DNA of 10,935 nt from a bacterium (GTDB lineage Bacteria; RBG-13-66-14), in the NCBI GenBank assembly GCA_035528375.1, contig DATKYS010000122.1:1-10935 (forward strand), given 5' to 3'. Positions 1-10,927 of the stretch are shown here, one piece after another. Each line of letters begins with the position of its first letter. Within the stretch, counting starts at the first letter, position 1. A program made the translations under genes and the position numbers. The notes below the pieces were generated by a model. It was not told the origin of the DNA. It made no database searches and saw only the letters and a list, made by a program, of their open reading frames with translations.

Positions 1-1131
1 TATCTGCTCCACGGCGAGGTTTATTTCCCCGCGACGGATGAGCTCGACCAGGAGCTCCTTGTAGAGCGTCCTGTGGGAGCCAGACAGTGTGGCGATGACC
101 AGGCTCGGCCTCGCCCCGGGGCGACCGATGAGCCCGGCCAGCGGCTCCAGGAGACCCGTCGAAATCTGCTCCGCCAGCTCCCGGGCGATGCCGTCCAGGG
201 TCAGAAGGAACGTGTTCACCTGCTCGGAGACGAGGGCCAGGCTGCCCCGGTCGCCGTCCTGATACAGCGCCTTCTCGGGGACGAAGAGGCTCGTGACGAG
301 CATGCGGGAGAGGTAGCCGACCCAGTCCAGGAGGGGGCCGACGTCGGCCGCACCCTGGAGCAGCTCGATCTCCCAGCCGGGCTGCCCGGTCTCGACGGGC
401 TGGGGCAGGGCCACGGCGGGGTGCTCGGAGTTGATCCGCTTGGCGAGCTCGAGGGCACGAGTTTCGTTCGCCGGTGCAGACTTCCCCTCGCTGTCCACGG
501 TGAGCTCGGCGGGGTAGCGCACGACGGCTGGCGGCAGGGCGTGCCGCTCCAGCCAGCGGTTGCCGTAGACCACGGCGTAGGTGAGCGCCTGCCAGAAGGG
601 CCAGGCCGGGGTGAGGTGGCTCTCGCCCCAGGGGTCGCCGAACTCCCCGGCGTGTACCAGCCAGAGGGACTTTTCCGCGTCGAGGTCCACGGTGCCGTCG
701 GCGCCTCGCCATCTCAATCCGGCAACCCGACCTTCATCATCCAGAAGCGCCTCGATGGTCCCGGGGTCCAGGGCGCGGGTCTCGATCAGGCGCACCCCGT
801 CCTCGGCGTCGTAGACGAGCTCGAACCCGGCGTAGCCGAAGTCCAACGAGGTGAGCGCCTGGCTCATAAGGCGTCGCCAGAGGGGGCGGAGCTGCTCGGC
901 CAGCTCCCTGGCCAAACCCTCGTCCGGGTCCTTCACGTCCCACTCGGCGCTGATGATGGGGCCCTTGATGACGTTCAGGCAGGCGGCCACCAGGCCGTGG
1001 CGGCGCATCCGCCGCAGTATAGCCAGGCTCGGCGAACCCGAGGACATGGGAGTAGGACGGATATTGACGGAACGCGGCCGGCCCATCCGCGGGGCGGCCA
1101 GCTTCTTCACCTTGCGGCGGAAGAGGGGCAA
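1..1131 (-). CDS. Phage portal protein, DUF935 / Mu gp29-like (3' part beyond window)
   Basis: The portal forms the dodecameric ring at the capsid vertex through which the terminase pumps DNA. The minus frame is open for 377 codons from 1131 to the left edge with no stop, so the C-terminus is missing. I chose a TTG start because GGGAGGA stands three bases upstream of it; the first in-frame ATG, at 1086, has no ribosome binding site. Visible family features, counted from the TTG, are GYAGFELVY at about 99-107, a RALDP motif at 119-123, and a HAGEFGDPWGESHL block at 160-173 followed by a Trp-rich AWPFWQAL segment. These match the DUF935 (Mu gp29) pattern as I know it. The gene follows the terminase stop by 16 bases, the usual terminase-portal order. 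A Mu-type portal paired with a classical terminase is common outside Mu itself. The portal role is confident, the exact subfamily less so. Confidence 0.85.
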   Translation of the reverse strand, partial: MPLFRRKVKKLAAPRMGRPRSVNIRPTPMSSGSPSLAILRRMRRHGLVAACLNVIKGPIISAEWDVKDPDEGLARELAEQLRPLWRRLMSQALTSLDFGYAGFELVYDAEDGVRLIETRALDPGTIEALLDDEGRVAGLRWRGADGTVDLDAEKSLWLVHAGEFGDPWGESHLTPAWPFWQALTYAVVYGNRWLERHALPPAVVRYPAELTVDSEGKSAPANETRALELAKRINSEHPAVALPQPVETGQPGWEIELLQGAADVGPLLDWVGYLSRMLVTSLFVPEKALYQDGDRGSLALVSEQVNTFLLTLDGIARELAEQISTGLLEPLAGLIGRPGARPSLVIATLSGSHRTLYKELLVELIRRGEINLAVEQI

Positions 1132-1147
1132 GGGTCCTCCCGGGGGG

Positions 1148-2596
1148 TTAATCCAATCCAAGGGCGGCGGCGAGGGGGTCGTCGCCGAACCCGAAACTCT
1201 GATCGGCCAGGGAGGGGGGTTGGGTGACGAACCCCCTCCCCGCGGCCAACTCGCAGGCGTAGCCCAGGGCGTCCACCAGGTCGTCGTGGCTCCCGTGGGG
1301 GAAGGCCAGAAGCTCCTCCTCCAGGGGGCCCGGTTCCGGCGGGAGCCAGAGCCTCCCCCCGGACAGCCAGGCGGCCGGGCCGCTGGCGCGCAAATCCTTC
1401 CCGCCCCGGGGCTTCATGGCGACCACGGGAACGCGCCGCTTGCGCAGCTCCTGGACCACGGCGAGCTGATAGGCCACGGACTCGACGCCCACCACCACGG
1501 GCCGGTGGCGCCGGTTCATCTCGACGATGGTTTCGAGCTGGGCGGCGAAATCCAGCCGGAACCGCGTCGCCTCGAGGACGTGCCAGTCGCCGTCGGACGC
1601 GACGCCCAGGACGACGATGGCGCAGAAATCGCCGCCGCCCAGGGCCAGGTCCACGCCGACGACCGTAGCCACGGAAGGGGGCGGGCCGCCGGTGCGTCGG
1701 CGGAGCCACTCGGGGCGAAAAAAGGTCCCCGAGGCGAGGCTCGGGTCGTTTAAATATTGCAGGGCGAAGGCCACCGGCCCCATCTCACGCCGTCGCTCCT
1801 CCAATTTTTCCAGGGGCCAGCGGTCGGGCAGCAGCGGCGAGCCGTCGGGCAGGATTGCCGAGCGGCCGGTCCCGTTGACCGGCACGCCCCGGGCCAGCGC
1901 CGCGCCGTAGAGGTCCAGGGGGTGGTGCCGGGTGCCGACGAGGTGCAGAAAGGCCCCCGGCAGGAGCGTGGGGGCGAGGATGTTGGAAAACCAGTCGCGG
2001 AGCCGTTCCCGGACACGCTGGGTGGCCGAGGTGCGCTGAGCGACGAGGTCGTCGGCGACGACGCCGTCGTGGTGGCGACCCACCAGTCCCTGTCCGCTCC
2101 CGACGGCGGCCAGGGTCGGCTCTTTCCGCCGCCCGCGGCGCTTCAAGTAAATCGAATCCCGCGTGAACCGCAGGACGGGCGGGCCGTCGAAGAGCCACGC
2201 TACCTCGTCGCGCGCGAGAACCGAGGCCAGCTCGGCCAGAATCAGCCGGGCCTGGCGGCCGGTTTCCGAGGCGACCAGGTAGGCCCCCTCGGGGTCGAAG
2301 AGCGCCCGGTGGGCTAGAAAACCCACGGTGACCACGGTGGTCTTGAAAAAGCCCCGCGGCGCCAGGATGAGCGTCCGGGGCTCACGGGCGACCAGGCGGA
2401 GCCACTCGCGGTGGAAGGGCTCGAAGCGCCGGTCGGGGTAGAGGCAGCTCACGAGGAGAAGCCAGGGGTCGCGGAGGAGGATCCGGCGCAGGAGCGGCCG
2501 CTGGCTCTTCGGGGGCAGTCCCCGCAGTTGGTGCCAGACGTCCGCTTCCAAGTGCTTCTCTTTGAAGGGGCCGTCCGGCCTACGGTTCGTCCTCAC
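1148..2596 (-). CDS. Phage terminase large subunit (ATPase plus RNase H-fold nuclease)
   Basis: This is the motor and nuclease that packages phage DNA through the portal. From the chosen GTG it has 482 residues. The ATPase domain shows a variant Walker A, APRGFFKTT (79-87), a VASET motif (108-112), Walker B GVVADD (178-183) and a coupling-type motif VGTRHHP (220-226). The C-terminal nuclease has the acidic residues expected of the RNase H fold: Asp316 in VGVDLALG, Glu372 in VGVES, and the DDLVDALG cluster around 438-445. The layout, including KPRGGKDLRA at 395-404, resembles the psiM2 ORF9 / Terminase_6 group. The frame is open further upstream to 2815, but that extension overlaps the 85-aa gene and looks like an out-of-frame translation of it. 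The GTG at 2596 overlaps that gene's stop by 17 bases, which suggests translational coupling. A TTG (codon 16 of this reading) is an alternative start. All catalytic residues appear intact. Confidence 0.93.
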   Translation of the reverse strand: MRTNRRPDGPFKEKHLEADVWHQLRGLPPKSQRPLLRRILLRDPWLLLVSCLYPDRRFEPFHREWLRLVAREPRTLILAPRGFFKTTVVTVGFLAHRALFDPEGAYLVASETGRQARLILAELASVLARDEVAWLFDGPPVLRFTRDSIYLKRRGRRKEPTLAAVGSGQGLVGRHHDGVVADDLVAQRTSATQRVRERLRDWFSNILAPTLLPGAFLHLVGTRHHPLDLYGAALARGVPVNGTGRSAILPDGSPLLPDRWPLEKLEERRREMGPVAFALQYLNDPSLASGTFFRPEWLRRRTGGPPPSVATVVGVDLALGGGDFCAIVVLGVASDGDWHVLEATRFRLDFAAQLETIVEMNRRHRPVVVGVESVAYQLAVVQELRKRRVPVVAMKPRGGKDLRASGPAAWLSGGRLWLPPEPGPLEEELLAFPHGSHDDLVDALGYACELAAGRGFVTQPPSLADQSFGFGDDPLAAALGLD

Positions 2597-2837
2597 CGGC
2601 CCCGAGCTCGGAGCGCAGACGCAGGGCGATTCCCAGGCCGACGTCGTCGGAGGGCCCCTCAGCCGCGGAGCCGTCCAGCTCGAGGAGCATGCGCGCCGCT
2701 TCGAGGAGGTCACGGGGCTTTGCGACGGTGAGCTTGCCGTCGAGGATTTCGCGCTCGGCCCGTTCGATGAGCTTTTCCAGAAGTCCGGCCACGGTCGCGC
2801 GCGGCGAGGAGGCACAGCTGTCGTCGGGGGCGTTCAT
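2580..2837 (-). CDS. Small hypothetical phage protein, 85 aa; possible terminase small subunit position
   Basis: I do not recognise a family. The 85-residue protein has a predicted helical core at about 15-55 (AGLLEKLIERAEREILDG, then DLLEAARMLLELDG) with alternating Leu and charged residues, and an acidic, low-complexity C-terminus. It sits directly before the large terminase, where a small terminase subunit is usually encoded, but it is shorter than typical TerS and shows no obvious helix-turn-helix, so that role is only positional inference. It begins seven bases after the upstream 68-aa gene stops, and its end overlaps the terminase start. No clear ribosome binding site precedes the ATG, consistent with coupled translation. 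The tight packing and helical composition favour a real gene. Confidence 0.6.
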   Translation of the reverse strand: MNAPDDSCASSPRATVAGLLEKLIERAEREILDGKLTVAKPRDLLEAARMLLELDGSAAEGPSDDVGLGIALRLRSELGAGEDEP

Positions 2838-2844
2838 AGATGCG

Positions 2845-3051
2845 TCATGCGTCCGGGCGGCCCGTGAGGTAGGCGCGGATGCGGTTGAGGCGCCGGCCCG
2901 AGGAGAACCAGCGGTCTGCGTCGCGGAGCATGAAGAGGAAAATCTCCCGCGCCCGTCGGCGCGCCTCGGGGGAGGGGAGACCGTCGTTCTCCTCCTCCAC
3001 GGCGTTCTCGATGCGGGAGAGCGGCCAGACGTCGGCGGGGAGCTTGAACAT
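2845..3051 (-). CDS. Small hypothetical phage protein, 68 aa
   Basis: No family is recognised. The protein begins MFKLPADVWPLSRIENAVEE and has a charged helical centre (residues about 28-46, SPEARRRAREIFLFMLRDAD) and a basic C-terminal stretch (SGRRLNRIRAYLTG). It may be DNA- or protein-binding, but that is only inferred from charge. It is the first gene of the packaging cluster downstream of a candidate minus-strand -10 box and one copy of the switch repeat. I chose the internal ATG at 3051. A GTG at 3114 would add 21 residues rich in Thr, Gln, Asn and Pro that look less like a folded N-terminus. Neither start has a strong Shine-Dalgarno, so the start remains uncertain. Confidence 0.55.
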   Translation of the reverse strand: MFKLPADVWPLSRIENAVEEENDGLPSPEARRRAREIFLFMLRDADRWFSSGRRLNRIRAYLTGRPDA

Positions 3052-3140
3052 GGGGCGGCTCGGCGGTTGGGTGTTTATCCGATTCGGGTGGGTGTGTTGG
3101 GTTTCCCCTCTCACCCCTTATTACGGATTGTGGGGGGCCG

Positions 3141-3169
3141 ATTATAACAGATGCATCATATAATCATCA
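3141..3169 (-). promoter_or_regulatory. Candidate minus-strand promoter for the small-terminase-portal genes
   Basis: On the minus strand a perfect TATAAT lies at 3146-3141, 90 bases before the ATG of the 68-aa gene. Seventeen bases further upstream the -35 position reads TGATGA, a poor match. That -35 region falls inside the 18-bp repeat at 3153-3170, so the promoter may need an activator or be blocked by a repressor bound there. The regulatory reading is inference. Confidence 0.4.
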
Positions 3170-3170
3170 T
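3153..3170. repeat. Switch repeat copy 1 (candidate operator)
   Basis: The minus strand reads ATGATGATTATATGATGC. It matches copy 2 (3611-3628) at 16 of 18 positions, in an otherwise GC-rich region. It overlaps the -35 region of the candidate packaging promoter, while copy 2 overlaps the repressor promoter, so both promoters could bind the same protein. Confidence 0.5.
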
Positions 3171-3184
3171 ACGCCCTGAAACCG

Positions 3185-3556
3185 CTACCCGTCGGGTCCC
3201 GGGGCGCCCGCCAGACGGCGGACCAGGCGGCGGCGGGCCCTGGACAGGATGGCCGCCAGGCGGGGCTGGCTGACGCCGAGCGTTTCCGCCGCCTCGCGCT
3301 GGGCGTAGCCCGCGAGATAGTAGAGCGCCACCGCCCTCCTCTCACGGTGCGGCAGCCGGGACAGAAGCTCCTCCACCTCGAGCTTCACCGAGAGCCACTC
3401 CTCCAGGGAACGCTGTGTGTCCCCCGACCGGCGGGACCGGGGTGAGGAAATCCGCTGGGGGTGGGGGTGCAGGAGGCGGGCGAGGGCGTGGGGATAGAGC
3501 CGCAGCATGCCCTGCAGGCGCTCGTCGGGATCGAGCTGCGAGATGTCGAACTGCAC
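3185..3556 (-). CDS. Sigma-70 region 4-like DNA-binding regulator (phage)
   Basis: This 123-residue protein has a C-terminal sigma-region-4-type helix-turn-helix. After LPHRERRAVALYYLAG (68-83) comes the HTH proper, YAQREAAETLGVSQPRLAAI (84-103), and a basic SRARRRLVRR tail (105-114). Sigma region 2 is absent and the first 50 residues are unrelated, so it is not a complete sigma factor. Known phage proteins of this shape act as late-gene or packaging-gene transcription regulators, which fits its place as first minus-strand gene before the terminase cluster. The GTG start is set by a strong AAGGAGGT ribosome binding site ending three bases upstream. A longer frame from 3628 would begin inside the promoter region and is rejected. 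The 133-bp gap to the next gene holds a second promoter-like element, so it may activate that promoter. The function is inferred from the fold. Confidence 0.78.
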   Translation of the reverse strand: MQFDISQLDPDERLQGMLRLYPHALARLLHPHPQRISSPRSRRSGDTQRSLEEWLSVKLEVEELLSRLPHRERRAVALYYLAGYAQREAAETLGVSQPRLAAILSRARRRLVRRLAGAPGPDG

Positions 3557-3593
3557 GGGACCTCCTTTTTTAAAACGATGACGGTACGGGTGC

Positions 3594-3622
3594 TTGACAT
3601 TTGTAAAAATGCATATTATAAT
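3594..3622 (+). promoter_or_regulatory. Consensus sigma-70 promoter of the CI-like repressor gene
   Basis: TTGACA at 3594-3599 and TATAAT at 3617-3622 are both perfect matches and are separated by exactly 17 bases. Transcription would start near 3629, leaving about 75 bases of leader before the repressor ATG at 3704. The -10 box lies inside switch repeat copy 2. ATTATAAT is itself palindromic, so a minus-strand -10 for the divergent sigma-like gene occupies the same bases (3620-3615). A second perfect TTGACA at 3633-3638 has no well-spaced -10. Confidence 0.8.
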
Positions 3623-3628
3623 CATCAT
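3611..3628. repeat. Switch repeat copy 2 (candidate operator overlapping both divergent -10 boxes)
   Basis: The minus strand reads ATGATGATTATAATATGC, 16 of 18 identical to copy 1. Binding here would cover the -10 of the repressor promoter and the overlapping minus-strand -10, which is suitable for a mutually exclusive switch. The operator role is inference. Confidence 0.5.
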
Positions 3629-3653
3629 GGGGTTGACAAAAAGAGTCTACAGA

Positions 3654-3671
3654 TAATCATATTACAATCAT
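3654..3671 (+). promoter_or_regulatory. Paired AATCAT motifs in the repressor leader (candidate autoregulatory operator)
   Basis: TAATCAT at 3654-3660 and CAATCAT at 3665-3671 are direct repeats 11 bases apart, about one helical turn, between the promoter and the repressor ribosome binding site. The same AATCAT core occurs in both switch repeats (3162-3167 and 3620-3625). This suggests one protein recognises all four, probably the adjacent repressor, but no binding is shown. Confidence 0.4.
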
Positions 3672-3703
3672 AGGTCGCTGTCAAGCACCGGGGAGGAAAA
3701 AAG

Positions 3704-4396
3704 ATGGAAACCCTCGGCGCCCGCATAAAAAGGCTCCGCACGGCGCTCAACCTGCGACCCGCCGAGCTCTCCCGCCTCGTCGGCGTCCCGCCCCAGTACA
3801 TAGACAACTGGGAAAACCGCGGACACCGGCCGAGCTCGCGCTACGGAACCCTCCTGGCCCAGGCGCTCGGCATCACCGAGGAGGAGCTTTTCACCGGGCG
3901 CAAACCCACCAACCACGACGAGCTCTCGAAGCTGACCGTCACGGAGCTCCTGCAGAGAGCCGCCCAGGCCACCGCCGCGCTCCCCGGCTACGAGATCCGG
4001 CGCTTCCCCCTCCTGGGCGAAATCGCCGCCGGAGCACCCTTCGAGGCCGAGGGTGAAGAGGCCCTGCCCGTCGCCACCCACGTCCCCCGGGGCACCCCCG
4101 ACAACTGCTACTTTCTGCGCGTCCAGGGCGACTCCATGCTCGGCGACGGCATCATCTCCGGCGACCTCGTCCTCATAGACCCCGACACGGACCCGGAGCA
4201 CATGAACGAGCAGGACATCTACGCTATTCTGTTGAACCAGAGCAACGTCACCCTCAAGCGCATCCGCCGTGTGGGCGGCGTGATGTGGATGGTGGGGTCG
4301 AACCCGAAGATAGCGCCCATCCCGCTCACCGACGAGCAGCACGGCGAGGCGCGCGTCCTGGGCCGGCTGATCAAGCTCGAGCGGTACTACCACTAG
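3704..4396 (+). CDS. CI/LexA-type repressor: XRE helix-turn-helix plus S24 self-cleaving domain
   Basis: This is a phage-type transcriptional repressor of 230 residues, expected to hold the lytic and packaging genes off and to be inactivated by RecA-stimulated self-cleavage after DNA damage. Residues about 5-62 form an XRE/Cro-type helix-turn-helix (IKRLRTALNLRPAELSRLVG, then PPQYIDNWENRG). After a linker, the S24 peptidase domain shows the cleavage site Ala109-Gly110 in GEIAAGAPF, the nucleophile Ser144 in QGDSMLGDGI and the general base Lys185 in VTLKRIRR, all intact. The length is typical of lambda CI-like proteins. The ATG follows GGGAGG with a seven-base spacer. It is divergent from the sigma-like gene, with a consensus promoter and candidate operators between them. 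A host LexA is less likely given the XRE domain and phage neighbours. Confidence 0.93.
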   Translation: METLGARIKRLRTALNLRPAELSRLVGVPPQYIDNWENRGHRPSSRYGTLLAQALGITEEELFTGRKPTNHDELSKLTVTELLQRAAQATAALPGYEIRRFPLLGEIAAGAPFEAEGEEALPVATHVPRGTPDNCYFLRVQGDSMLGDGIISGDLVLIDPDTDPEHMNEQDIYAILLNQSNVTLKRIRRVGGVMWMVGSNPKIAPIPLTDEQHGEARVLGRLIKLERYYH

Positions 4397-4620: not shown

Positions 4621-4701
4621 CCCCCTCTCCCGGTGGGAGAGGGCCGGGGTGAGGGCTGCATTTGAATGAAAAACGGGCGGGTCAGGAGACCCGCCCCTAC
4701 G
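4621..4701. repeat. Composite hairpin repeat, copy 1 (CTCTCCC hairpin + spacer + GGGCGGGTC hairpin)
   Basis: The first hairpin has nine paired bases, CCCTCTCCC (4623-4631) with GGGAGAGGG (4635-4643). An AT-rich spacer with CATTTGAATG follows. The second hairpin pairs GGGCGGGTC (4675-4683) with GACCCGCCC (4688-4696) around an AGGA loop. On the minus strand the second part begins GTAGGGGC. The same composite recurs at 4852-4944, so it behaves as a dispersed REP/BIME-like unit. Confidence 0.75.
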
Positions 4702-4730
4702 GGTAAAGTGTGAATCGCGCACCTTCCTCG

Positions 4731-4755
4731 TAGGGGCCGACCTTTAGGTCGGCCC
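4731..4755. repeat. GTAGGG-headed hairpin repeat
   Basis: GGGCCGACCT (4734-4743) pairs perfectly with AGGTCGGCCC (4746-4755) around a two-base centre, headed by GTA at 4730-4732. It shares the GTAGGG(G)C head with the minus-strand ends of the flanking composites and with the repeats at 6774-6888, but its stem sequence differs. Confidence 0.65.
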
Positions 4756-4770
4756 GCGAACTGCCGCATT

Positions 4771-4820
4771 CTCCCTCTCCCCGTGGGAGAGGCGCGCCTA
4801 CGGGCTGGGCTGAGGGTCGG
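4771..4820. repeat. CTCTCCC/GGGAGAG hairpin repeat without the second hairpin
   Basis: CTCTCCC (4775-4781) pairs with GGGAGAG (4785-4791) around CGT, followed by a diverged form of the GGGGTGAGGG tail found in the other two copies. It lacks the spacer and GGGCGGGTC hairpin, so it is a partial member of the same family. Confidence 0.6.
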
Positions 4821-4851
4821 GGTAGGGAATGTAAACGCGGCGGCCCGCATT

Positions 4852-4944
4852 CCCCCTCTCCCCGTGGGAGCGGCGCGCCGACGGGACCGGGGTGAGGGCT
4901 TCATTTGAATGAAAAACGGGCGGGTCAGGAGCCCCGCCCCTACG
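4852..4944. repeat. Composite hairpin repeat, copy 2
   Basis: It has the same arrangement as the copy at 4621-4701. The 42 bases at 4902-4943 match 4659-4700 with a single difference, which breaks one base pair of the second hairpin. The first hairpin also has a changed base (GGGAGCGG instead of GGGAGAGG) and an insertion before the GGGGTGAGGG tail. Confidence 0.75.
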
Positions 4945-5019
4945 TCATCGCAATCTGCGAGGCGCGGGCCCCCTCACGGCGACCGCCCCACGACAAACCG
5001 CACGGCCAACCCAAACCCC

Positions 5020-6702: not shown

Positions 6703-6773
6703 GTGAACCCTCCGTCCGCCCGCGCCCGTCGGGAAACGTTACGGACAACTCCGGCGTTCCCGCTTCAACGAAA

Positions 6774-6830
6774 AATGTAGGGCGGACCCGTAGGACGAGT
6801 CCTCCACGGGCCGCCGCATGCAGGGAAATC
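6774..6830. repeat. 57-bp hairpin repeat, copy 1 of tandem pair
   Basis: It begins AATGTAGGGCGG and ends GCAGGGAAATC. Outer arms GGCGG.CCC and GGGCCGCC and inner arms GGAC and GTCC can fold into one long imperfect hairpin. It is 52 of 57 identical to copy 2, one base away. Its GTAGGG head matches the hairpins near 4700. Confidence 0.75.
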
Positions 6831-6831
6831 A

Positions 6832-6888
6832 AATGTAGGGCGGCCCCGTAGGACGAGTCCTCTGCGGGCCGCCGCGCGCAGGGAAATC
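6832..6888. repeat. 57-bp hairpin repeat, copy 2 of tandem pair
   Basis: This is the second unit of the tandem pair. Its outer arms GGCGGCCC and GGGCCGCC are fully complementary. The five differences from copy 1 include one in the left arm (A to C) that improves pairing and four in the loop or tail region, so the hairpin form seems to be kept. Confidence 0.75.
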
Positions 6889-6926: not shown

Positions 6927-6955
6927 TTGCGGCGGGGGAATAAATGGTCTATACT
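6927..6955 (+). promoter_or_regulatory. Sigma-70-type promoter of the exported FlgT-C/propeller protein gene
   Basis: TTGCGG (6927-6932) and TATACT (6950-6955) are separated by exactly 17 bases. Transcription would start near 6962, giving a leader of about 20 bases that ends in AAGGGGG (6970-6976), four bases before the ATG at 6981. Confidence 0.6.
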
Positions 6956-6980
6956 GCGCCAATTTGGTGAAGGGGGTCGC

Positions 6981-8597
6981 ATGAGGAAGCTCGTCCCGGT
7001 TCTGCTGATCATCGCCGCCGGCGCCCTGGCCGCCGCCGGGCGCATCGCCGTCTGGCTCGATGTCCCCGGCTCCAGCGACTACCGTCTCGTGGAGGCCGCC
7101 CGGGCCGGATTCGATGAGGGGCTGACCGACGCCGGGTTGAACCCCGCGCCCCGCGACGAGGTGACCAGCATCAACACCGTCATAGACCCCTCGAGCGACG
7201 CCCAGCTCGCGCAGTTGGCCGCGGCGCTGGGGTGTGACTACGCCGCCGCCCTGACCGTCGAGGCCGCGGGGGGCGGGGTGGAGATTTCCGGCCTGGTCCT
7301 CGACCCCTACAGCGGAAAACGCTACGAGGGCCCCGCCGCCCCGGCGGAGAGCGCCGACGGCGCCCGGACGACGGCCGCGCGCATGGCCGGGGAGCTCGCG
7401 ATAAACCTGCCCACCTCGGGGCCCGTGATTTCACTGGACGAGAAGTGGTCCACCGCCCAGACGGCCCTCGGCGCGGGCGACGGCGTTCAATTCAACGATT
7501 ATTGCTGGATCTACCGCTACGGCGAGCCGCTGATCCACCCCGACACCGGCGAGATTCTGGGGGTGACGGCGACCGTGGTCGGGGCGGGCCGGGTGGAGGA
7601 GGTCCGGGGCGACCACCTGTCCCTGGTCTCCCTCTCCCCGCCGGCGGAGGGCCTGGAATATTCGCCCACCGACCGGGTGCGGGCGCTGGACGGGGGGACT
7701 TACGAGAGGCTGGGCTTCGCCCGCGGCACCGTGGTCTCCTTCGGCGTCCTGGGGTTCGGCGGCGCGGCGGCCATGCCCGTCCCCCTCCCCGGACCGGTTC
7801 ACCCGCCCGGACCCGAAGGAGTCGAATTGAAATTGGAGGAGAGCCTGGAGTTGGACTACACCCCGGTGGGCCTGGACGCGTCCTACTCGGGCGTCGTCCT
7901 CTGCGATGACGACGGGCGGCTCCACCTCCTCCCGCTGAAGCTCGAGAACGGTCCCGAGCTCCTCGTCGAGACGGGGGTGTCCGGTCCCGTCGCCCGCCTG
8001 GGGGACGAGGTTTACCTGGCCAATTCCTGGGAGGGCGTGGTGCTCCGTTTGGCCGCCGGGGCCGACGAGCCGGAAATCTTCGCCGAGGGGATCAGCCCGG
8101 ACCTGCTCGTCGCCGGGGGCGACGGCAGCCTGTGGGCCGTCGTGTTCAGCTACTCCTCGGGCTGGGACCTGGTGACCTACCCCGCGCTCGAGCTGGGGCC
8201 CGCGGGCGACGTGGTCGAGGTCCGGGAGCTGGACGCGGGCAAGCTCAACGCCCTCGCCGCGTCCCCCGACGGCACGCTCTACTACCTCGCGAGCTTCGAG
8301 CCGATACGGGGCCTGCGGCCCGACGGGTCGGTGTTCGAGGTCGGCGCCCGGATGCTCCCCGACCCCAAGGCCCTGGACACCGACGCCCTCGGCTGGCTCT
8401 ACGTGGTGGACGCGCGCTCGGGGCTGACGGTCTTCGACGCCCGCCAGCGGGTCGCGGGAACCTGGGGCGGCGCCGGCGTGGTGGACTTCCGCAACGTGAA
8501 TCTCATCGCCGTGACGGACGACGGCGTCTACCTCGCCTCCGGCTGGGACCGGGTCCTGTACCGCCTGAGCCTCTCCTACACCTACCCGGAGCGCTGA
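6981..8597 (+). CDS. Exported protein with FlgT C-terminal-like domain and probable beta-propeller
   Basis: A 538-residue protein, starting at the ATG after AAGGGGG; the open frame extends 54 bases upstream, but those codons lie over the promoter. Residues 1-20 are a signal peptide (MRKLVPVLLIIAAGALAAAG). Residues 21-145 alternate short strands and helices like N-terminal domains of CsgG/FlgT-type envelope proteins. Residues about 164-217 contain GDGVQFNDYCWIYRYGEPLI, then HPDTGEILG and a VGAGRVEEV strand, which resembles the small beta-barrel FlgT_C domain. A Pro-rich linker (about 264-282) leads to repeats of about 40-50 residues (DDDGRLHLLPL, GDEVYLANSW, GDGSLWAVV, PDGTLYYLAS, ALGWLYVVDA, DDGVYLASGW), as in NHL/SMP-30-type propellers. 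A location in the envelope or outside the cell is inferred. The function is unknown. No terminator is evident downstream. Confidence 0.8.
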   Translation: MRKLVPVLLIIAAGALAAAGRIAVWLDVPGSSDYRLVEAARAGFDEGLTDAGLNPAPRDEVTSINTVIDPSSDAQLAQLAAALGCDYAAALTVEAAGGGVEISGLVLDPYSGKRYEGPAAPAESADGARTTAARMAGELAINLPTSGPVISLDEKWSTAQTALGAGDGVQFNDYCWIYRYGEPLIHPDTGEILGVTATVVGAGRVEEVRGDHLSLVSLSPPAEGLEYSPTDRVRALDGGTYERLGFARGTVVSFGVLGFGGAAAMPVPLPGPVHPPGPEGVELKLEESLELDYTPVGLDASYSGVVLCDDDGRLHLLPLKLENGPELLVETGVSGPVARLGDEVYLANSWEGVVLRLAAGADEPEIFAEGISPDLLVAGGDGSLWAVVFSYSSGWDLVTYPALELGPAGDVVEVRELDAGKLNALAASPDGTLYYLASFEPIRGLRPDGSVFEVGARMLPDPKALDTDALGWLYVVDARSGLTVFDARQRVAGTWGGAGVVDFRNVNLIAVTDDGVYLASGWDRVLYRLSLSYTYPER

Positions 8598-8638: not shown

Positions 8639-8657
8639 GCGGGCTCGGGGAAAATTG
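8639..8657 (+). repeat. 19-bp direct repeat, copy 1
   Basis: GCGGGCTCGGGGAAAATTG is present here and again, identically, at 8700-8718, a period of 61 bases. The intervening sequence is not otherwise repeated. Confidence 0.7.
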
Positions 8658-8699
8658 CCCGAAAGCCGCCGCCTCAATCGCCGCGTAACCGGCCGGCCA

Positions 8700-8718
8700 G
8701 CGGGCTCGGGGAAAATTG
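8700..8718 (+). repeat. 19-bp direct repeat, copy 2
   Basis: It is identical to 8639-8657 and abuts the AT-rich promoter-like block ahead of the duplicated operon. It could be a regulator site or the scar of a local duplication. Confidence 0.7.
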
Positions 8719-8821: not shown

Positions 8822-9235
8822 ATGCGCCGGTATTCACTCTGGGTCGTGGCGGCCGTGCTCTTGGCCCTCCCGCTGGGGGTCCGCTGCGAATCCGACTCCG
8901 AGAGCGGGGAGGCCAGCCTGGCCGTCACCAACGGCACCTACTACTACATCCACGTCCAGATAGGCTCCGACAGCTTCCCCTACCTCCCGCCCGGCGAGAC
9001 CAGCGGGCGCTCCCTCATGTCCGTGGGCGAACGGGTCACCTGCCGGGTGACCTACTCACCGGGGCAGGGCGTCTCCGGCTGGTACACCTTCGATTACACC
9101 GGCGGCGGCGGGACCACGGGGGGCCTGGGCTGCAACGAAAGCGGACAGCTCACCTGCGAGCCGACCTCATCCTACGGCTCCGACGACGTCGTCACCGTTT
9201 ACGACGTCAACCTCCGGGGGGTGCAGGTGGAATGA
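8822..9235 (+). CDS. Small four-cysteine exported protein, module 1
   Basis: I do not recognise a family. The 137-residue protein has an N-terminal hydrophobic segment (YSLWVVAAVLLALPLGV, 4-20) followed by R-C-E-S-D, so Cys22 is either an atypical lipidation site or simply the first residue of the exported part. The core SLAVTNGTYYYIHVQIGSD (32-50) and PYLPPGE (53-59) look like a small beta-sandwich. Cysteines at 22, 74, 104 and 112 are conserved in the paralogue at 9898-10317, as are PPG and YSPGQG, pointing to disulfides outside the cytoplasm. The start has only a weak AAGGGCGG upstream. Its stop overlaps the next gene's ATG (ATGA). The pairing with a beta-barrel suggests the two act together at the outer membrane, which is inference. 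Confidence 0.75.
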   Translation: MRRYSLWVVAAVLLALPLGVRCESDSESGEASLAVTNGTYYYIHVQIGSDSFPYLPPGETSGRSLMSVGERVTCRVTYSPGQGVSGWYTFDYTGGGGTTGGLGCNESGQLTCEPTSSYGSDDVVTVYDVNLRGVQVE

Positions 9236-9894
9236 GAACGATCGCATACCTCGTCATAGCGTTGATGGTCACCGCCGCCTCGGCGGCCGACGTGTACCGC
9301 CCCACCGCCGACGAGCCGGAGGCCTCCGCCCGGTCCGAATCCCTCTTCAGAATCGCCCTTTCCGTCAACACGGCGCTCGCCGTCGGCGACTGGAAGGCCC
9401 ACCCCATAGACGCCGACCGGACCATGTTCGGCCCCCTGGTCGGCGTGGAGCTGGAGGCGGGCTGGAACCCGGGGCGCGTCTTTTACGGCGTCGTGGGCCG
9501 GATGTGCACCTACGACACCGGCGGCATCGTGGGGCTGGGCGACGGGAGCGGTGAAATCGAGGCGGCGCACGCCATGAGCCTCTCCGCCCTGGCTTCCGTG
9601 GGGCTGTATTTGGGCGACGGCCGTGTAAAACCCTGGGCGGGCCTGGGGGTCGGCGTGGAGTGGATGATCGCCGACGAGGAGTTAAACGGCGTCGTGTTCG
9701 ATTTCGATAATGTCTTCCTCCCCGTCCTCACCTTCAGCCCCGCCGTCGGGCTCGAGTTCGGCCTGTCGGACGAGCTCTACGTGCCGGTCCGGGTGAGCTA
9801 CGACTTCAGCCTGAACCAGGTGGAGGGCTACGGCGACTACTCCGGCCACGGGCAGGACCTGGTCGTCGCGGTCGGCGTCGGCCTCTACCTCTAA
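9232..9894 (+). CDS. Outer-membrane beta-barrel-like protein, module 1
   Basis: A 220-residue exported protein. The signal peptide is MRTIAYLVIALMVTAASA, with cleavage expected after Ala18 in an A-S-A motif. The rest is rich in alternating strands and glycines (VGVELEAGW, VFYGVVGRM, AGLGVGVEWM, LYVPVRVSYDFS, DLVVAVGVGLYL), typical of small eight- to ten-stranded barrels of the OmpA/OmpW size class, and it ends in a Tyr-containing strand. Blocks shared with the paralogue at 10310-10927 are LAVGDW (49-54), DRTMFGP (62-68), TYDTGG (93-98), GVGVEW (139-144) and a C-terminal QVEGYGDYSGHGQDLV. The start is an ATGA overlap with the preceding gene, so translation is coupled. An open frame continues far upstream but only shadows the preceding gene. 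The function is unknown. Confidence 0.8.
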   Translation: MRTIAYLVIALMVTAASAADVYRPTADEPEASARSESLFRIALSVNTALAVGDWKAHPIDADRTMFGPLVGVELEAGWNPGRVFYGVVGRMCTYDTGGIVGLGDGSGEIEAAHAMSLSALASVGLYLGDGRVKPWAGLGVGVEWMIADEELNGVVFDFDNVFLPVLTFSPAVGLEFGLSDELYVPVRVSYDFSLNQVEGYGDYSGHGQDLVVAVGVGLYL

Positions 9895-9897
9895 TCC

Positions 9898-10317
9898 ATG
9901 CGCCGCTCCCTCCGGCTTCTGCTGCCCATCCTCGCCATCCTCCCCCTGGGCGTCCGGTGCGAGAGCGACGCCGCGGGGACGACCGACGGCTCCCTGGCCC
10001 TCTACAACGACACCGCCTACTACCTCCACCTCTCCATCGGCGGGGCGGATTTCCCCTGGACCCCGCCCGGCGACTCCACCCCCCGCGTGGGGGTGGACAT
10101 CGGCCAGACGCTGCGCTGCACCGCGGCCTACTCCCCGGGGCAGGGGCGGACGGGGAGGACGGAGTTCGACTTCACCGCCTCGGCCGCCGATCCCGAACCC
10201 GGCGTGGCCGTCTCCTGCAACGCCGGCGTCGGCACCGCCTGCGACCCCCTCGTCACCGACGGAAGCGCCCCCCACTACCTGCGTTACGTCACCGAGGAGA
10301 TGCTGGGGGATGCGTAA
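9898..10317 (+). CDS. Small four-cysteine exported protein, module 2
   Basis: A 139-residue paralogue of the protein at 8822-9235. It has the same hydrophobic N-terminus ending in LPLGVRCESD, here with Cys21, then SLALYNDTAYYLHLSIGGAD (32-51), WTPPGD (54-59) and YSPGQG (78-83). Cysteines at 21, 74, 107 and 115 keep the spacing of the first copy, including the final Cys-x7-Cys. The C-terminal 24 residues after the last Cys differ completely between copies. It starts three bases after the barrel 1 stop with no clear ribosome binding site, so it probably depends on re-initiation. Its end overlaps the barrel 2 start by eight bases. Confidence 0.75.
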   Translation: MRRSLRLLLPILAILPLGVRCESDAAGTTDGSLALYNDTAYYLHLSIGGADFPWTPPGDSTPRVGVDIGQTLRCTAAYSPGQGRTGRTEFDFTASAADPEPGVAVSCNAGVGTACDPLVTDGSAPHYLRYVTEEMLGDA

Positions 10318-10927
10318 CCCCGCCCTCCTACTCCTGCTCGCCCCCGCGTTGAGCGCGACCGCCGCGGACACCGAGGTGTGCCTGGCGCTCTACGCCGACA
10401 CCATGCTGGCCGTGGGCGACTGGGTCGCCCTGCCCGGCGACCCGGACCGCACCATGTTCGGGCCCTCCCTGGGCTGCGAGGTCGAGCTCACCCTGCGCCT
10501 GGGGCTCTCCATCTGGGGGCTGACGGTCAAGTACGGGACCTACGACACGGGGGGCTACGTGGGCACGGGGGAGGAGCCGAACCGGGTCGAGGAGGCCGAG
10601 GCTCACTCGGTTTCGGCCCTGGGGTTCGCCGGGGTCCGGATGGACGAGGGGGGGACCGTGCGGTTCTGGTGCTGTCTCGGCCTGGGGGTGGAGTGGCTGC
10701 GGGCCCGGGAGACCGTGGGCGGCCGGGATTACGACTACGGGCGGATATTTCAGCCCTGCCCCTGCGCCTGCCTCGCCCTGGGCGCCGAAGTGTTCCTCAC
10801 CGAGGACCTCTTCGTGCCGGTCAAGGCGAGCTACGACGTTAGTTTCGGCCAGGTGCTGGGTTACGGCGGTTATTCGGGCCAGGGTACGGACCTGGTCCTG
10901 TCGTTGGGCCTGGGCGTCGTTTTCTAG
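10310..10927 (+). CDS. Outer-membrane beta-barrel-like protein, module 2, cysteine-rich
   Basis: A 205-residue paralogue of the barrel at 9232-9894. The signal peptide is MRNPALLLLLAPALSATA, with cleavage after Ala18 as in the first copy. Conserved blocks are LAVGDW (33-38), DRTMFGP (46-52), TYDTGG (77-82), GLGVEW (124-129), LFVPVKASYDVS (167-178) and GYGGYSGQGTDLV (184-196). It ends in Phe, the classical terminal aromatic of outer-membrane barrels. Unlike copy 1, which has a single Cys, it has seven: 24, 56, 121, 122, 150, 152 and 154, including a CPCAC cluster. GAGGAG and GGGG sequences precede the ATG. It is the last gene visible, stopping eight bases before the window end, so the operon may continue. 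Confidence 0.78.
   Translation: MRNPALLLLLAPALSATAADTEVCLALYADTMLAVGDWVALPGDPDRTMFGPSLGCEVELTLRLGLSIWGLTVKYGTYDTGGYVGTGEEPNRVEEAEAHSVSALGFAGVRMDEGGTVRFWCCLGLGVEWLRARETVGGRDYDYGRIFQPCPCACLALGAEVFLTEDLFVPVKASYDVSFGQVLGYGGYSGQGTDLVLSLGLGVVF

Follow-up and report, generated by a model that had tools for sequence, protein, structure and literature searches.

The right-hand end of the analysed contig carries a pair of genes in two tandem copies, one encoding a small protein with an exported-type N-terminus (S) and the other a predicted eight-stranded outer-membrane barrel (B), and we consider it very probable that S and B form a conserved module that was duplicated as a unit. We read this pair as an envelope module restricted to its lineage, probably an outer-membrane complex with direct contact between the two proteins, and assign to this reading a probability of roughly one half. 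The window, i.e. the whole stretch of DNA that was analysed (10,935 nucleotides), is the entire contig C122 of a Coatesbacteria draft genome of 2.63 Mb in 144 contigs (G000). All four open reading frames of the tandem module proposed at 8822-10927 in the preliminary description are present. They lie on the plus strand at the contig end in the order S1-B1-S2-B2, with the following features:

8822-9235, plus strand: S1, a small exported protein of 137 amino acids with a signal peptide to about residue 22, a beta-rich mature part and C104/C112
9103-9159, plus strand: glycine-rich stretch and Cx7C motif of S1 (C104...C112), the sole cysteine pair common to all members
9232-9894, plus strand: B1, an outer-membrane barrel of 220 amino acids with a signal helix (2-19), an 18-residue linker and 8 strands
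9898-10317, plus strand: S2, 139 amino acids, a paralogue of S1
10310-10927, plus strand: B2, 205 amino acids, a paralogue of B1 with a short N-terminal linker and a CxCxC motif in strand 6
10757-10771, plus strand: the CxCxC motif of B2 (C150, C152, C154), predicted by strand parity to face the lumen

The start of B1 overlaps the stop of S1 by 4 nt (ATGA) and the start of B2 overlaps the stop of S2 by 8 nt; the gene order repeats between the copies, as had been described, but the length of the overlap does not. Only 3 nt separate the stop of B1 from the start of S2, and S2 has no evident Shine-Dalgarno sequence of its own. The overlaps, this short gap and the lack of a clear ribosome-binding site make it probable that a single message serves all four genes and that their translation is coupled. 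From position 8560 on, the sequence showed no promoter consensus of the sigma-70 type. A direct repeat, GCGGGCTCGGGGAAAATTG, is present in two copies just upstream of S1 (8640-8718).

Among named bacteria, the nearest relative that we found is Candidatus Coatesbacteria bacterium RBG_13_66_14 (G002; sister contig L019, MFAF01000134). The double unit is present in this species and in a second sister species, G001, where B1 has decayed. A third, G003, probably has it too, judging from a B2 gene that is preceded by the last ~40 residues of S2 at the point where the contig ends. Single S-B pairs occur in two other lineages: in G004, from another genus of the same family, the pair has the same ATGA overlap, and in G012, from another family, it is strongly diverged and overlaps by 29 nt. 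The S protein of G012 is matched directly by S1 (E 4.7e-6) and by an S profile built without it (E 2.6e-6 against 5000 shuffles). Its B protein shows only 19% identity to B1 and was missed at the first look of a whole-genome search with a profile built without it, but direct profile comparisons show the relation, with E 5.4e-5 among 5000 shuffles and a P value of 8.5e-6 in hhalign. The B profile, by contrast, gives no barrel of the Protein Data Bank an E-value as low as 5 and thus has no solved relative by sequence, so that the kinship of the G012 protein goes beyond mere barrel likeness.

Of the 14 Coatesbacteria genomes compared, both families occur in 6 and neither in 8, some of the latter being 97-100% complete. 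Under random assortment the probability of such a split, computed by hand, is 1/3003, a figure that makes the link look stronger than it is, since the genomes are related. A weak match of S in G013 (E 0.07), broken by a stop codon and with no S-like or barrel reading frame beside it, was dismissed as chance. In about 320 bacterial genomes outside the phylum the S profile found nothing. The order and overlap of S and B are kept in G000, G001, G002, G004 and G012 amid different flanking genes, namely a PRK-type kinase and a beta-propeller-like reading frame upstream in the genus of the window, a HydG-like gene upstream in G004, and zinc-ribbon and methyltransferase genes in G012. Because the flanks differ between genera, the link is one of S with B and not that of a conserved neighbourhood. 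Co-occurrence, the shared neighbour relation and co-duplication together mark S and B as linked partners. The functional linkage proposed in the preliminary description is thereby supported: homologues that usually occur alone would have spoken against it, and we found both genes together in the other lineages as well.

The remainder of the window contains Mu-like prophage genes that are confined to its left part (1-4396):

4-1161, minus strand: Portal_Mu, a Mu-like prophage gene
1151-2815, minus strand: Terminase_6C, a Mu-like prophage gene
3188-3628, minus strand: sigma-70 region 4 protein in the prophage region
3704-4396, plus strand: helix-turn-helix and S24 repressor in the prophage region

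The repressor region is also found in L019. Dispersed intergenic repeats at 4674-4953 and 6773-6876 of the window recur in L019 (7640-8024) and at the end of C61, another contig of the window's own genome, and the assembly probably broke at these repeats. Positions 6927-8597 encode a 556-residue protein of exported type without a Pfam match. The same genomes encode several paralogues of its N-terminal ~220 residues, and a relative of this large reading frame lies on the S-B contig of G004, on the opposite strand and separated from the pair by the HydG-like gene. In G002 a 229-residue reading frame of exported type, absent from G000 and G001, lies between the 556-residue frame and S1 (L019:4722-5411), and it has no Pfam match.

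S1 and S2 share about 42% identity over 130 aligned residues (E 2.2e-24 and 41% in the genome search) and B1 and B2 about 44% over 204 (E 1.1e-44 and 45% in the search), and this equal divergence, together with the S-B-S-B order, is what duplication as a unit predicts. The S tree, the B tree and a tree of the joined pair show an identical split into copy 1 and copy 2, with a support of 100/100 in the joined tree. The B2 of G003 groups with the other B2 copies (99/100), which places the duplication before the split of this species, and the order of the duplication and the separation from the G004 genus appears in the tree as a three-way fork. With dN/dS values of 0.29-0.64, the two copies are maintained at the protein level in the sister species. 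The pair was thus duplicated as one unit no later than the base of the window genus and its copies then specialised, in agreement with the earlier suggestion of joint duplication followed by strong divergence. A look beyond the right edge for more copies had been suggested; no third copy follows B2 in L019, nor is one present at the end of C61. In L019, B2 is followed by a convergent gene for a HEAT-repeat lipoprotein, and the same gene lies near the end of C61.

The signal peptide of S ends near a conserved LPLGVRC, with a first cysteine at C22 in S1 and C21 in S2. In the window genus and in G004 this residue is preceded by arginine or histidine (LGVRC or LGVHC), and the S of G012 has no cysteine at this point. 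Arginine or histidine before the cysteine is, as a usual rule, not accepted by signal peptidase II, and since a PROSITE-like lipobox pattern (G/A/S before the cysteine) is found in none of the eight members, we rejected S as a lipoprotein. The genus does have ordinary lipoproteins, as evidenced by the canonical lipobox VFSGC of the HEAT-repeat protein. The designation of S as a four-cysteine protein holds within one genus and fails as a shared framework: G004 and G012 lack C74, and C104/C112 (Cx7C, shortened to Cx5C in the latter) is the one pair that all eight sequences retain, probably as a small disulfide hairpin.

No family beyond chance level was found for S in Pfam (eight members searched) or NCBIfam, and as no named family exceeds its cut-off for B either, the earlier remark that neither family was recognised stands. 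A match to a fucose lectin in the Protein Data Bank (E 3e-4) was set aside, as it consists of three repeats of a 36-residue stretch that alone have i-Evalues of 13-41 each. An origin of S as a phage or mobile-element gene was likewise rejected, with no relative in IMG/VR and a single weak PHROG match (E 0.019). The AF2 model of S1 has nine short strands at low confidence (pLDDT 52.5). Being beta-rich, it resembles Ig/FnIII-like domains, and FnIII and carbohydrate-binding sandwiches head its list of matches, none of which rises above chance level (Foldseek E 0.25 and VIA Z 4.6 at best). Such folds, weak as they are, would fit a rather unlikely alternative in which S and B share an operon and its regulation without touching, S being a secreted or periplasmic protein with a job of its own, such as carbohydrate or ligand binding. 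The chance level of the matches themselves speaks against it, as do the strict neighbourhood and the co-occurrence across two families with different flanks.

For B1 the AF2 model comprises a signal helix and eight strands (mean pLDDT 61), and hydrophobic and polar faces alternate in seven of them. The closest solved folds are PagL (VIA Z 8.6), OmpA (Z 8.5) and NspA (Z 8.4), aligned over 107-128 residues with an rmsd of 2.4-3.1. Like these barrels, B1 combines a signal peptide with eight amphipathic strands, in a model with a pLDDT of only 61, and unlike them it has conserved loops and a sequence identity of merely 5-12% to the solved examples. B1 matches the Pfam family OMP_b-brl (PF13505) with E 7.6e-5 and 23.4 bits, less than the gathering score of 28.7; this is the best of the matches below E 1 that three of the eight B members produce. 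The likeness in sequence is thus real, although it falls below the Pfam cut-off. In NCBIfam B had no match. General diffusion porins are trimeric wide-pore barrels of 16-18 strands, and the tentative label of a porin that B had been given is unlikely to hold: with eight strands and a mature protein of 180-200 residues it is too narrow for such a pore. We also rejected an enzyme of the PagL/PagP type, with a conserved catalytic histidine and serine or aspartate, as the B alignments contain no invariant histidine.

With the N-terminus of the barrel taken as inside, the loops L1 (AVGDWK..P....RTMFGP) and L4 (QV.GYG.YSG.G.D) reach conservation values of 0.56 and 0.60, against 0.41 for the strands, across copies and genera; for all external loops against strands a permutation yields p 0.06. 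External loops are usually the variable part of a barrel, and their conservation in B suggests a functional surface. In three species B2 has the CxCxC motif in strand 6 and a further cysteine in strand 5, all with lumen-facing parity (L019:6978-7595 in G002). This ladder, unusual for an outer-membrane barrel, is absent from B1 and from the barrels of G004 and G012.

RcsF, a lipoprotein that has two disulfides and an RcsF domain, forms part of the Rcs stress sensor together with OmpA, OmpC or OmpF. S recalls it as a small exported protein with cysteines that may work jointly with an outer-membrane barrel, and differs from it in lacking a lipobox and the RcsF domain, in conserving a single cysteine pair and in being encoded with its barrel. 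Complexes of RcsF with outer-membrane proteins are described for E. coli in two reports (PMC4942254, PMC7553776). By analogy, B might display or thread S at the surface, the pair acting as a sensor or surface ligand system, and the combination of a small exported cysteine-bearing protein with an OmpA-type barrel and conserved extracellular loops L1 and L4 would suit this. We nevertheless hold it to be very improbable, as S has no lipobox and an isolated eight-stranded barrel has a narrow lumen. That S is itself an RcsF was rejected, as none of the eight members has the Pfam match and only one cysteine pair is conserved.

The decay of B1 in G001 bears on how far S depends on its own barrel. The gene is reduced to an in-frame remnant of 61 residues (L062:2541-2726, contig C139 of G001) that consists of the first ~20 codons and pieces around residues 142-153 and 192-220, with many substitutions. 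Its open frame ends 9 nt before S2 and may preserve translational coupling to this gene. S1 is intact, with 85-90% identity to its orthologues and a dN/dS of 0.31-0.40 that is no looser than elsewhere, and so are S2 and B2. Although G001 is a draft of 420 contigs, the two separate in-frame deletions and the substitutions make an assembly fault unlikely, if not fully excluded. S1 is therefore still useful without B1 and does not strictly need its own barrel: either B2 serves both S1 and S2, or S has work that is independent of a barrel. The loss of B1 but not S1 would fit the alternative in which the two merely share an operon. It would also suit a periplasmic helper, i.e. an assembly, stability or occlusion factor for B that enters no lasting surface complex, as S1 could then serve the remaining B2. 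S is translated first in every pair and has a signal peptide but no lipobox, in line with such a role. We regard it as unlikely all the same, for S evolves fast and is rich in beta structure, which sets it apart from known chaperones of outer-membrane proteins, it matches no solved chaperone significantly (FimC only, E about 1), and small eight-stranded barrels normally need just general chaperones and BAM.

In the reading that we prefer, that of an outer-membrane complex, S would be a small protein that is exported through Sec, carries no lipid, resembles a beta-sandwich and has a single disulfide hairpin, and B would be an eight-stranded barrel of the OmpA/NspA type. Tandem translation from one message would keep their amounts matched, and S would dock on B, both most likely working together at the outer membrane. 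Several observations weigh against docking. In G001, B2 would have to serve S1, and with S1 persisting there after the decay of B1, the earlier idea of a ligand and its anchor is no more than a guess. The conserved parts of B lie on its outer side, whereas S, being exported through Sec and not lipidated, would start out in the periplasm. On that side B presents no more than turns of 2-4 residues and, in B1, the N-terminal linker, and there is no evident path by which S could reach the cell exterior. The conservation of the B loops is only suggestive at p 0.06, and confidence in the models is middling for B1 (pLDDT 61) and low for S1 (52). More speculative by far is a version in which the dedicated barrel would hold the non-lipidated S at the outer membrane through its extracellular loops, for a display or sensing function specific to Coatesbacteria, with the lumen-facing cysteine ladder of copy 2 serving metal binding or thiol chemistry; we consider this highly doubtful.

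The envelope of the Coatesbacteria is almost unstudied. The linked envelope genes S and B belong to no named family, and related genomes carry them as a single pair, in duplicate or in partial decay. If the pair were merely an operon the case would be an ordinary one; as it stands, it provides a clean and small system for asking if so small a barrel of the outer membrane works with an exported protein dedicated to it.
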